Source: Chloroflexota bacterium
GTDB lineage: Bacteria; Chloroflexota; Limnocylindria; Limnocylindrales; CSP1-4
Length of the DNA: 11,006 bases
Reading direction: 5' to 3'
Assembly: GCA_025355255.1 (NCBI GenBank)
Contig: JANYAA010000338.1
Span: 1-11,006 of the forward strand
Position numbers and translations under genes: made by a program. Shown in pieces: positions 8,084 to 11,006 of this stretch. The notes beneath the pieces are model-generated. The model searched no databases. It saw only the letters and a list, made by a program, of their open reading frames with translations, and was not told the origin of the DNA. The stretch's first letter is position 1. Each line of letters begins with the position of its first letter.

Positions 8084-9256
8084 GTGGCGTCGTCCCCGGT
8101 CCACGGTTCAGTCCGCCTCACGGAAGACCAGATCCTGTTGCGCGACGCCGTGCGCGTCCTGTCCGACGACCGTGTGGCGCCGCGCGCGGCGGAGATCGAC
8201 AAGACAGGGGAGTTCCCGCAAGACCTGCGCAGGCTCCTTGCAGACCAGTCCGTGTTTGCTATTCCGTTTGCGGAGCGCCACGGCGGGCTTGGGGCAGACC
8301 TGCTGACCCTCGCGCTCGCCATCGAGCAGCTGAGCCGCCACTGCGCCACTACCGGGCTGATGCTTGCCGTGCAGGCCCTGGGCGCCATCCCCATCCAGGT
8401 GGCCGGCACAGAAGAGCAGCAGGAGCGCTGGATCCCGGGTCTCGCATCCGGCGAGAAGATGATCGCGTTTGGGCTGACGGAGGCTGAGGCAGGGTCTGAC
8501 CCCGGCGGCATCCGGACCCGCGCCGTTCGCGACGGCGACGACTACGTCATCACCGGGTCCAAGCGCTTCATCAGCCACGCCAGTGTTGCGGACTACGTGG
8601 TGGTCTTCGCCGCCACCAACCCCGACGCCGACAAGGCCAGCCGCCGCCTCTCCGCCATCCTTGTGGAGACCGACCGCCCGGGTTTCGCCGTCACGCGGCT
8701 GGAGCACAAGATGGGCCTGCGGGGATCGCCCACGGCTGAGCTCGCGTTTGACGGGGTTCGCGTGCCCATCGGCAATCGGCTCGGCGATGAGGGTCAGGGC
8801 TTCGCCATCGCGATGCAGACCTTTGAGCGCTCGCGGCCGGGGATTGCCGCGCAGGCGGTGGGCCTGGCGCAGGGCGCGCTGGAGGTGGCCGCCAAGTACG
8901 CCACGGAGCGGCGCCAGTTCGGCAAGCCCATTGCGGACCTCCAGATGGTGCAGGCAATGCTGGCCGACATGGACGCTGGAACTGAAGCGGCGCGCCATCT
9001 GCTCTACACGGCCTGCCAGGAGATCGAGGCGGGCTCGCCGGATGCCGCACGCTGGGCGGCAATCTGCAAGCTTGTCGCGGGCGACAACGCGATGCGCGTG
9101 ACCACGGATGCCGTGCAGGTCCTTGGCGGCTACGGGTATGTGGAGGACTTTCCGGTGGAGCGGATGATGCGCGACGCCAAGATCACCCAGCTGTACGAGG
9201 GCACCCAGCAGATCCAGCGCCTGATCGTTGCGAGGTCCCTGCTCAGCCCGCGCTAG
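8084..9256 (+). CDS. Acyl-CoA dehydrogenase
   Basis: This FAD enzyme would oxidise an acyl-CoA to the 2,3-enoyl-CoA and pass electrons to electron-transfer flavoprotein. At 390 residues it has normal length. Seen in order: the N-terminal helical domain, the FAD/substrate segment LTEAEAGSDP at 131-140 with ITGSKRFIS at 156-164 in the beta domain, then the C-terminal helical domain with ERRQFGKPI at 275-283, QVLGGYGY at 345-352 and YEGTQQIQR at 371-379. Glu372 sits where short-chain and related enzymes have the catalytic base, so the enzyme looks active; long-chain and isovaleryl enzymes place it elsewhere. Chain length is not readable from sequence. It follows the FadF/EtfD-type protein closely, so the two likely share a transcript and an electron path. 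etfA and etfB are not in the window. Confidence 0.95.
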   Translation: MASSPVHGSVRLTEDQILLRDAVRVLSDDRVAPRAAEIDKTGEFPQDLRRLLADQSVFAIPFAERHGGLGADLLTLALAIEQLSRHCATTGLMLAVQALGAIPIQVAGTEEQQERWIPGLASGEKMIAFGLTEAEAGSDPGGIRTRAVRDGDDYVITGSKRFISHASVADYVVVFAATNPDADKASRRLSAILVETDRPGFAVTRLEHKMGLRGSPTAELAFDGVRVPIGNRLGDEGQGFAIAMQTFERSRPGIAAQAVGLAQGALEVAAKYATERRQFGKPIADLQMVQAMLADMDAGTEAARHLLYTACQEIEAGSPDAARWAAICKLVAGDNAMRVTTDAVQVLGGYGYVEDFPVERMMRDAKITQLYEGTQQIQRLIVARSLLSPR

Positions 9257-9277: not shown

Positions 9278-9293
9278 CTACCGCATGTAGTGG
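9278..9293 (+). promoter_or_regulatory. NrdR box 1 (candidate operator)
   Basis: The 16-mer CTACCGCATGTAGTGG agrees with the NrdR-box consensus ACACWATATATWGTGT at 9 of 16 positions, including AC in the left arm and TAGTG in the right. It shares TAGTGGT with box 2 at exactly 31 bp. Weaker than box 2 alone, but the spacing supports it. Confidence 0.5.
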
Positions 9294-9299
9294 TATCGT
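9294..9299 (+). promoter_or_regulatory. Possible -10 element TATCGT of the nrdR-dcd promoter
   Basis: TATCGT fits TAnnnT and lies directly after box 1 and 9 bases before box 2, so bound NrdR on the two boxes would bracket and block it. No clear -35 is seen 16-18 bases upstream. Placement is inference. Confidence 0.3.
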
Positions 9300-9308
9300 T
9301 GCGCCACA

Positions 9309-9324
9309 CCACAAGGGATAGTGG
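9309..9324 (+). promoter_or_regulatory. NrdR box 2 (candidate operator)
   Basis: The 16-mer CCACAAGGGATAGTGG agrees with ACACWATATATWGTGT at 11 of 16 positions and is an inverted repeat with the 4-8-4 layout of NrdR boxes; the arms extend to CACCAC (9307-9312) and GTGGTG (9321-9326). It ends 20 bases before the nrdR ATG, as expected for autoregulation. Confidence 0.6.
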
Positions 9325-9344
9325 TGGGATGCCATGGAGACTGG

Positions 9345-9830
9345 ATGCGCTGTCCGCAGTGCTCGGCCCGGGACACCCGCGTGGTGGACTCGCGAGACCT
9401 CGACGACGCTGCCACCATTCGGCGCCGGAGGGAGTGCCCAGGGTGCGGCAGCCGCTTCACCACGTACGAGCGCGTTGAGGCCGCTCGCCTGGTCGTGGTC
9501 AAGCGCGACGGGACCCGCCAAGAGTTTGACCGCGACAAGCTGGCGTCGGGTCTCGCGAAGGCGCTGACGCGCCGACCAGTCGCTGACGACGCGGCGGAGC
9601 GGGGAGCCGACGCCATCGAGACAACACTGCGCGCAAGCGGCCAGTCTGAGGTCCCCAGTTCGCTTGTCGGCACGCTGGCGATGGAGCGTCTCCGCGCCAT
9701 CGACCATATCGCCTACATCCGGTTTGCATCCGTGTACCAGAGCTTCGAGGACCTCGAGGATCTCAAGCGCGAGGTGGACTCGCTGTTCGCCGAAGGGGGC
9801 TCTGTGAAGAAGGGAAAGCGCGAGCGATGA
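9345..9830 (+). CDS. nrdR: Transcriptional repressor NrdR
   Basis: NrdR senses ATP and dATP and represses ribonucleotide reductase genes by binding paired NrdR boxes. The 161-residue protein begins with MRCPQC and a zinc ribbon (Cys3, Cys6, Cys31, Cys34) containing [17 protein letters not shown] and GSRFTTYER, then an ATP-cone domain from about 49 to 139 with [16 protein letters not shown] and [14 protein letters not shown]. The start is ATG 9345 because NrdR proteins begin MxCPxC and GGAG lies 5 bases upstream; an in-frame GTG at 9321 lies inside box 2. The usual length is about 150, and the small excess is a basic tail (KKGKRER). dcd overlaps the stop by ATGA. Two operator-like boxes precede the gene. 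No reductase gene is in the window. Confidence 0.96.
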
Positions 9831-10420
9831 GCGTCCTAGCGGACCGCGACATTCGGGCGGAGCTTGAGTCGGGCCGCGTGCGGATTGACCCGTACGATCC
9901 TTCGGACCTGCAGCCGTCATCGGTGGACCTCCACCTTGACGCGAGCTTTCGGGTCTTCCGCAACAACCGCTACGCCTTCATCGATCCGCGTCTGCCGCAG
10001 CCGGACTTGACGGAGCTGCTCACGATCACCGGGGACGATCCCTTCATCCTGCATCCCGGCGAGTTTGTCCTGGGCCAGACGCTTGAGTGGGTCGAGCTGC
10101 CGGACGATCTGGTAGCGAGGCTGGAGGGCAAGTCCTCCCTTGGCCGGCTTGGGCTGCTCATTCACTCCACGGCTGGCTACGTCGATCCCGGCTGGAAGGG
10201 CACGCTCACCCTTGAGCTGTCCAACGTGGCGAACCTGCCGATCGCGCTGTATGCGGGGATGCGGATTGGCCAGATCAGCTTCTTCCGCATGAGCTCGCCC
10301 GTGGAGCGCCCGTACGGATCCAAGGGTCTCGGATCCAAGTACCAGGGCCAGAGCCAGCCCACGGCCTCATCCGCGCACGCGGACTTTGAACGCGGCCGCC
10401 GGAAGCCTGCAGGCGCCTGA
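9827..10420 (+). CDS. dcd: dCTP deaminase, probably the bifunctional dCTP deaminase/dUTPase type
   Basis: dCTP deaminase makes dUTP from dCTP for dTMP synthesis. The 197-residue protein has [11 protein letters not shown] at 28-38, [13 protein letters not shown] at 71-83, [12 protein letters not shown] at 99-110, [13 protein letters not shown] at 113-125, the catalytic-glutamate segment LTLELSN with Glu130, and KYQGQ at 171-175. It closely follows Mycobacterium tuberculosis Dcd as I know it ([34 protein letters not shown]), which makes dUMP directly by deaminase plus diphosphatase activity. Bifunctionality here is an inference from that likeness. Start ATG 9827 overlaps the nrdR stop (ATGA), so the two are translationally coupled. 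The last 20 or so residues ([14 protein letters not shown]) are variable in the family. Confidence 0.95.
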
Positions 10421-10423
10421 ACC

Positions 10424-11006
10424 ATGGCCATCAACGATGCGGTCCACTGGCGGGCCGACCTTCGCGGCGGCACCACGGTCGCGCTGGTCCAGGCGGGCAG
10501 CTTCCTCGGCGATGCCGGGTCGCTGCTGGGACCCGTGCCGTGGGTCCTCTGGCGCCCCCTCGTGGAGGCCGATCTGGATGAGAACCGGCGGCTACGCCAG
10601 GCGCTGAACTGTCTGCTCGTCGAGACGCCGGCCGGCCGCGTGCTCATCGAGACGGGGATGGGGGAGCGCCAGAACCCGCATCTCGCCGCGTCACGCGGGT
10701 ATCAGGGCCCGGACATCGTTCCAACGCTGCAGAACGCCGGGTTTGACCCGGCGAGCGTGGATGTGGTGGCGATGAGCCACCTGCACTTCGACCATGCCGG
10801 CGGCTTGCTCCGCGCGGACGGGTCACGCGCCTTCCCCCGGGCGCGGATCGTGGCACAGCGGGCGGAGTGGGAGATCTCGGCCCGCGAGAACGGGCGCATC
10901 GCCGCGTCGTACGACCAGGCTGAGTTGCGCCTGGTCGCGGACTGGGGTGCCGACGGCTGGGCGGAAGGCGATCGGGAGCTGCTCCCGGGCGTCAGCGTCA
11001 TCCGCA
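10424..11006 (+). CDS. Metallo-beta-lactamase-fold hydrolase (3' partial)
   Basis: The frame starts at ATG 10424, 3 bases after the dcd stop, and runs off the window with no stop after 194 residues. The MBL zinc motif SHLHFDHAGG lies at 118-127, with His119, His121, Asp123 and His124 as metal ligands. Before it are a typical first beta sandwich (NCLLVETPAGRVLIETGMG at 62-80) and IVPTLQNAGFDPASVD leading to VVAMSH. The further metal ligands and C-terminal half are outside. Such proteins include lactonases, thioesterase-like and other hydrolases, so no substrate can be named; the NCLLVETPAGRVLIETGMG pattern is common in MBL-fold hydrolases of unknown function. It probably belongs to the nrdR-dcd transcript by spacing, but no functional link is evident. 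Translation to base 11006 is direct reading. Confidence 0.85.
   Translation, partial: MAINDAVHWRADLRGGTTVALVQAGSFLGDAGSLLGPVPWVLWRPLVEADLDENRRLRQALNCLLVETPAGRVLIETGMGERQNPHLAASRGYQGPDIVPTLQNAGFDPASVDVVAMSHLHFDHAGGLLRADGSRAFPRARIVAQRAEWEISARENGRIAASYDQAELRLVADWGADGWAEGDRELLPGVSVIR

Follow-up and report, generated by a model that had tools for sequence, protein, structure and literature searches.

Does the operator-like sequence in front of nrdR in this Chloroflexota genome serve the repressor gene alone, or does it also bring the adjoining dCTP deaminase gene, dcd, under NrdR control? The dcd product turns dCTP towards thymidine, and the dCTP/dTTP branch point is known for feedback by dTTP. 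We analysed a stretch of 11,006 nt (hereafter the window), one contig of a source genome from an uncultured bacterium that measures 2.73 Mb and is 83% complete, and compared it with relatives that are mostly metagenome-assembled genomes (MAGs) and not independent of each other. Our main reading, to which we give a probability of roughly 0.8 from the sequence comparisons described below, is that two boxes found upstream of nrdR form an NrdR operator on the promoter of an nrdR-dcd operon, through which NrdR would limit itself and Dcd while repressing nrdJ, the ribonucleotide reductase (RNR) gene.

Two candidate NrdR boxes on the proposed nrdR-dcd promoter

The features of the window to which we refer are as follows.

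8084..9256, + strand: acyl-CoA dehydrogenase gene (ORF list and Pfam), 88 nt upstream of the nrdR start
9278..9293, + strand: candidate NrdR box 1, CTACCGCATGTAGTGG, CTAC-N8-GTGG, with C4 at 9281 and G13 at 9290; kept in relatives
9291..9299, + strand: extended -10 element TGGTATCGT, of the form TGnTAnnnT, conserved in relatives by column conservation
9309..9324, + strand: candidate NrdR box 2, CCACAAGGGATAGTGG, CCAC-N8-GTGG, with C4 at 9312 and G13 at 9321; perfect arms
9345..9830, + strand: nrdR, 161 aa, repressor with Zn-ribbon and ATP-cone (TIGR00244, Pfam; start from alignment)
9827..10420, + strand: dcd, 197 aa, dCTP deaminase (TIGR02274; closest solved structure 2qxx; residues of the bifunctional type)
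10424..11006, cut at the window end, + strand: metallo-beta-lactamase-fold hydrolase gene, YtnP-like (Pfam, ORF list)

The preliminary description had reported two 16-mers in the 4-8-4 layout of NrdR boxes, with starts 31 bp apart, sharing TAGTGGT and enclosing a -10-like TATCGT, and the sequence bears this out on every point. The 16-mers stand at 9278-9293 and 9309-9324 and leave a spacer of 15 bp, TAGTGGT occurs at 9288-9294 and 9319-9325, and TATCGT (9294-9299) is part of the extended -10 element, the TG of which falls in the right arm of box 1. In the portions of the literature consulted here, paired NrdR boxes are defined as 16-bp palindromes with C4 and G13 (PMC9110341, PMC12051234), and pairs are bound at spacers of 14-17 bp (or 24-27 bp; PMC12051234). 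The window pair has this form, with CAC/GTG arms, the published C4 and G13 in both boxes, a spacer within the 14-17 bp range and a single arm mismatch, located in the left arm of box 1 (CTAC), the arms of box 2 (CCAC/GTGG) being free of mismatches. From this arrangement, transcription would be expected to start just upstream of box 2. An Rfam scan near the boxes and in the nrdJ leader (5 sources) gave no match at the gathering score.

The ORF list placed the start of nrdR at GTG 9321, which we rejected because this codon falls inside box 2 and relatives align from MRCP; alignment with relatives sets the start at ATG 9345, with a protein that begins MRCPQC. The encoded NrdR scores 187 bits against TIGR00244 (cut-off 124.65) and has the Zn-ribbon with two CxxC motifs and the ATP-cone of the family, with C3, C6, C31, C34, R12, D15, R17, R26-R29 (RRRR) and R37 kept in the alignment. 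These include the contact residues named for the S. coelicolor protein, in which R12, 26-29 and 37 make backbone contacts and D15 and R17 are the specificity residues (PMC9110341, in the part consulted). The stop codon of nrdR and the start codon of dcd overlap by 4 nt (ATGA), which supports co-transcription, presumably on a single transcript. The hydrolase gene begins 3 nt past the end of dcd and is a possible third gene of the operon. At the other end, the acyl-CoA dehydrogenase gene lies on the same strand as nrdR, and read-through from it into nrdR is possible. A relative of the hydrolase gene was matched somewhere in 101 of the 110 nrdR loci listed.

Conservation and loss of the boxes in relatives

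We found nrdR in 38/41 genomes, the source genome included (39 matches), and read 110 nrdR loci, made up of 30 of these 39 matches and the best 80 of 460. Once regions identical over their last 110 bases had been merged, 89 distinct upstream regions were left, and the window is one of the 89. Among the regions of the loci listed, a pair of boxes at exactly 31 bp occurred with at most 0, 1, 2 and 3 mismatches in 19, 41, 49 and 55 of the 89, respectively, as compared with shuffle means of 0, 0, 0.15 and 1.0. The check that the preliminary description had proposed, conservation of both boxes and of their 31-bp distance, came out in its favour, since all 11 of 11 same-genus relatives retain them, as do the 49/89 regions with two mismatches or fewer. 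The spacing profile has a spike at 31 bp, with echoes at 28 and 34 bp that we attribute to repeated CACCAC/GTGGTG edges. In a second family of the order, 7/8 loci keep the 31-bp distance with other letters (e.g., ACACAAGATCGTGTGT / CCGCAACCTGCGGTGG), and the eighth (L161) is degenerate, with 3 mismatches at 30 bp and 4 at 31 bp.

When the 55 anchored regions were aligned, the columns of box 2 proved the strongest, and the left arm of box 1 was weakly conserved. Conservation was also seen at positions outside the selection, namely the central AT of box 1 (54/55 each); in addition, an A precedes box 2 in 53/55 regions, a T follows it in 47/55, and the TATnnT block is conserved. The flanks of the boxes showed no conservation in this alignment, so that the boxes are conserved beyond their flanking sequence.

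A strict pattern, with perfect arms and a spacer of 14-17, was scanned for in 101 genomes of the family and gave 28 sites in 24 of them, against 15 sites for the reversed control. The 24 strict sites that we placed in context fall before nrdR-dcd in 21 cases, before nrdJ in one and before neither in two; the last two pairs (L231, by eye beside a tRNA-like stretch, and L233) were taken as chance. In the same scan, G008:C560 corresponds to the nrdR of L011, and G015:C6 precedes an nrdJ. No strict site was found in 77/101 family genomes, including the source genome, which fails the pattern because the arm of box 1 reads CTAC.

With the distance relaxed to 30-32 bp and up to 3 mismatches allowed, a pair was present in 61 and absent in 28 of the 89 regions of the loci listed. 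The box-less regions belong to genera g2, g7 and g14 and to many fen MAGs, and include one borderline region, L098, which has a 31-bp pair with 4 mismatches. The extended -10 (TGnTAnnnT at -80 to -20) was found in 52/61 box-bearing and in 28/28 box-less regions, with mononucleotide shuffles giving about 1.4 and 0.2, respectively. As the -10 is present in box-less regions too, it is a separate element that outlives the loss of the boxes, and NrdR control of the nrdR-dcd promoter seems to have been lost in part of the order with the operon kept. Universal NrdR control of dcd is rejected by these 28 regions; since they carry nrdR-dcd and the -10 without the boxes, control of dcd by NrdR is dispensable, and the NrdR-dcd link would be a trait of part of the lineage, not a fixed rule.

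Elsewhere in the class, another family is represented by six loci (L162-L167) with a pair at 30 bp that has 3-4 mismatches to the consensus, about 80-30 bases before nrdR; by eye, their second box differs (GTACCACnnnTGGTnT-like) and their -10 is of the same kind. Three loci from two further families (L186-L188) show 5-6 mismatches and no pair at 30-32 bp. By eye, the last 60 bases before nrdR in these loci hold box-like dyads (CGACTAGATGTAGGGG / CCCCTATATCTTGTGC and similar) 21-22 bp apart, that is, about two helical turns, with a spacer of 5-6 bp that lies below the 12-27 bp tested in the consulted part of PMC12051234.

dcd as the partner gene of nrdR

The alternative that survives best, an unlikely one in our judgement, holds that the boxes serve only the autoregulation of nrdR, with dcd as a neighbour that relies chiefly on a promoter of its own or on an internal one and whose level hardly follows NrdR. 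Gene order bears on it from both sides. Among the 110 loci listed, dcd is on the same strand as nrdR in 107 and starts between -25 and +100 nt from the nrdR end in 102, and in the window the two genes overlap by ATGA, all of which argues for a common transcript. However, gene order alone is no proof of one transcript: gaps of 405 nt (L104) and 759 nt (L027 and L100, one genome) occur, an internal promoter might drive dcd, as might transcripts running in from the gene that ends 88 nt ahead of nrdR, and dcd stays behind nrdR in 27/28 box-less relatives, the remaining locus being too short or without a match. In two further loci (L085 and L105), the first part of dcd adjoins nrdR and an insertion separates the second part.

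The wider phylum weighs against the boxes serving nrdR alone. Our sample, which addresses nrdR-dcd linkage within the phylum only, comprised 69 loci with flanks of 1.5-2 kb searched with the Dcd of the window, and 40 regions of the sampling were hand-chosen to cover families. dcd lies behind nrdR in 13/14 sampled loci of the host's class, the 14th ending at a contig end, and in 0/55 sampled loci of other families within the 1.5-2 kb read; 21 of these 55 have nrdJ behind nrdR. A box pair (here at most 2 mismatches at 30-33 bp) precedes nrdR in 9/21 nrdJ-linked as compared with 1/34 unlinked loci (Fisher P = 0.0004, kinship uncorrected), with 6 of the 9 coming from one family (f10). That boxes before nrdR go with nrdJ linkage favours boxes that serve the operon partner, not nrdR alone, and the distribution of partners suggests that dcd has replaced nrdJ behind nrdR in the host's class. 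As the preliminary description had proposed, autoregulation of nrdR together with control of dcd is supported; given the ATGA overlap of the two genes, no simpler reading is at hand, and NrdR very probably controls its own gene jointly with dcd.

The dcd product matches TIGR02274 with 218.7 bits (cut-off 92.8), as expected of a dCTP deaminase, and its closest solved proteins are 2qxx and relatives from M. tuberculosis (249.5 bits, as against 137.6 for the best E. coli-type protein). According to the part of PMC3360063 consulted, dUTP hydrolysis needs Ser102, Asp119 and Gln148, and an aromatic residue, Phe or Trp in the enzymes cited there, replaces the Arg of E. coli; the window Dcd has S103, D120 and Q149 at the equivalent positions and Tyr (Y118) as the aromatic residue. 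Dcd is thus probably a bifunctional dCTP deaminase/dUTPase that makes dUMP. A search of 25 genomes for the PF00692 dUTPase fold gave 23 matches in 22 of them (with scores above the cut-off in 18 genomes); by their coordinates, all of these directly follow nrdR, and there was none elsewhere.

In some relatives, an intein-like insertion in frame with Dcd breaks the protein at GK|SS, next to the active-site Ser; it begins with Ala, ends with THN and, in the two scanned, contains a LAGLIDADG_3 domain. Such interruptions were located at L085:4504-6132 and L101:4474-6087, in translation in L100 and L105, and as split matches in L022, L082, L130 and L140. By its motif, we take the insertion to resemble a class 3 (W-C-T) intein. 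One cyanophage paper names an intein and a dCTP deaminase together in its abstract (PMC6293099).

The nrdJ promoter, the proposed regulatory model and known systems

A second alternative, which we consider very unlikely, is that the dyads are not NrdR sites, being chance repeats, the operator of another regulator or the terminator of the upstream gene. G+C-rich dyad pairs do arise by chance: for CCAC-N8-GTGG-N15-CCAC-N8-GTGG with up to 3 mismatches, the source genome holds 21 places per strand, fewer than the 40 of the reversed control. Apart from the window site, which is the only occurrence in this genome with at most 1 mismatch, they consist of a single two-mismatch place (C48) and 19 three-mismatch places, which do not rise above the reversed control; only the top hit, the nrdR site, stands out. 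We also compared the pair with 3000 dinucleotide shuffles of the 250 bases preceding the start codon, scoring the arms as [AC]CAC and GTG[GT], by which the window pair has 1 mismatch in total. None of the 3000 shuffles reached 1 mismatch at 31 bp and 7 reached 2, and a single one reached 1 mismatch at any distance of 29-33 bp. Together with the spacing spike at 31 bp, these shuffles reject chance dyads. A terminator of the upstream gene is rejected because no T-run follows the dyads, and the boxes moreover sit on the conserved -10; the 4-8-4 layout with the published C4 and G13 likewise argues for NrdR sites, as does the presence of the same box before nrdJ.

The only RNR gene found in the source genome is nrdJ (contig C252, minus strand), the product of which is a B12-dependent class II enzyme (NF005122 and TIGR02504, both over cut-off). 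The preliminary description had asked whether nrd promoters of this genome carry the same motif, and the one found does: a box, CCACTATATCTTGTGG, lies upstream of nrdJ, 8 bp before TTGACC-N17-TAGAGT. Among 30 nrdJ loci, the source genome included, 2 lacked the N-terminus and 28 were testable, of which 27 (the exception being L060) carry such a box just ahead of TTGA(C/T), mismatched at no more than 1 arm position. In 16/27 loci, C4 and G13 are also retained in a partner box that lies 33 bp further upstream; in the source genome this partner is degenerate, with 4/8 arm letters off and C4/G13 kept. The 33-bp distance corresponds to a 17-bp spacer, inside the 14-17 bp binding range (PMC12051234, part consulted). 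Unlike the nrdR boxes, which sit on the -10, those of nrdJ precede the -35.

Several further observations were made at nrdJ. Its leader, counted from the proposed -10 as far as the ATG, is about 285 nt long, and DnaA-box-like GTGGAC/TGTGGA repeats can be seen by eye further upstream (G000:C252). In six genomes (G014, G016, G017, G019, G021 and G024) the nrdJ matches are split, several of them inside long open frames that reach 1697 aa, so that the class II reductase may likewise contain inteins. As another comparison promoter we took that of thyX, a gene present in 22/25 genomes. None of the 15 upstream loci tested had a pair with at most 2 mismatches, and a 3-mismatch pair within 700 nt in 3/15 (source genome included) was taken as chance; thyX was therefore rejected as an NrdR target.

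That NrdR acts here as an activator is hardly credible. An activating role is known for topA of P. aeruginosa, where NrdR works through one box only (PMC4409342, part consulted), whereas the window has a pair that straddles the -10 and the expected start site, which is the geometry of repression.

Under the preferred reading, an operator of the dATP/ATP sensor NrdR on the promoter of the nrdR-dcd operon, high dATP would lead an NrdR tetramer to occupy the two boxes from the same side of the DNA helix. In the structure described in the consulted part of PMC9110341, a tetramer loaded with dATP and ATP sits on two boxes separated by three helical turns, and the DNA is bent. At the window promoter, bound NrdR would bend the DNA in the same way and close off both the extended -10 and the expected start site, which lie between the boxes. 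The outcome would be that nrdR holds down its own expression and that dcd and nrdJ are repressed together. With Dcd making dUMP for ThyX, the same sensor would then set both Dcd and ribonucleotide reduction. A wider account, which we hold to be evenly poised between right and wrong, is that the class swapped nrdJ for dcd in an autoregulated nrdR operon. One dATP sensor would then repress nrdJ, through boxes of its own, and what is apparently the only dCTP-to-dUMP enzyme, which would place the dCTP/dTTP branch point under NrdR as well; part of the order would later have lost this control and kept the operon.

If the reading is true, two steps in the supply of DNA precursors may answer to a single nucleotide sensor. 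A conserved operon with dcd behind an NrdR operator would bring both thymidylate supply and the avoidance of uracil within the reach of NrdR, and this in genomes that gave no further PF00692 dUTPase match. Because the promoter is shared by relatives that have the boxes and relatives that lack them, there is a natural contrast that makes the effect testable.

Autoregulated nrdR is known from Streptomyces, with S. coelicolor nrdRJ as the worked example (PMC9110341), and against our reading counts that in Proteobacteria NrdR has never been found autoregulated (PMC5343134). NrdR is described as an RNR-specific repressor (PMC9110341), with topA of P. aeruginosa as the one exception that these papers name (PMC4409342); for all these papers we refer to the parts consulted. 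A literature search for NrdR together with dcd, conducted outside the RegPrecise Chloroflexi listing (a collection of 5 genomes; PMC3840689), returned no link in the text accessible, the two names occurring in separate gene lists or 'dcd' standing for dCDP. This agrees with the remark in the preliminary description that NrdR control of dcd is not a standard arrangement: dcd as a passenger of nrdR was not found in the print consulted.

Among known systems, P. aeruginosa topA resembles the window operon in being a DNA-metabolism gene outside RNR under NrdR (predicted here), and differs in its single box, in activation and in being unlinked to nrdR (PMC4409342, part consulted). For Dcd itself, the closest solved relative is mycobacterial Rv0321 (PDB 2qxx, 2qlp), of which Ser102, Asp119 and Gln148 are matched along with an aromatic residue that is Tyr here and Phe or Trp in the enzymes cited. 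We know of no NrdR operon link for Rv0321. The nearest regulatory counterpart is S. coelicolor nrdRJ, where the crucial GC pairs 9/18 and 40/49 are also 31 bp apart (PMC9110341, part consulted). As in that operon, two 16-bp boxes 31 bp apart lie on the promoter of an operon that begins with nrdR, with C4/G13 and the contact residues kept; unlike there, the second gene is dcd, and nrdJ is located on a different contig, preceded by a separate pair of boxes 33 bp apart. Within the phylum, the nrdR-nrdJ loci of other Chloroflexota (f10 and others) likewise combine paired boxes, at 31-32 bp, with a deoxynucleotide gene behind nrdR, which is nrdJ in those loci, whereas it is dcd here.
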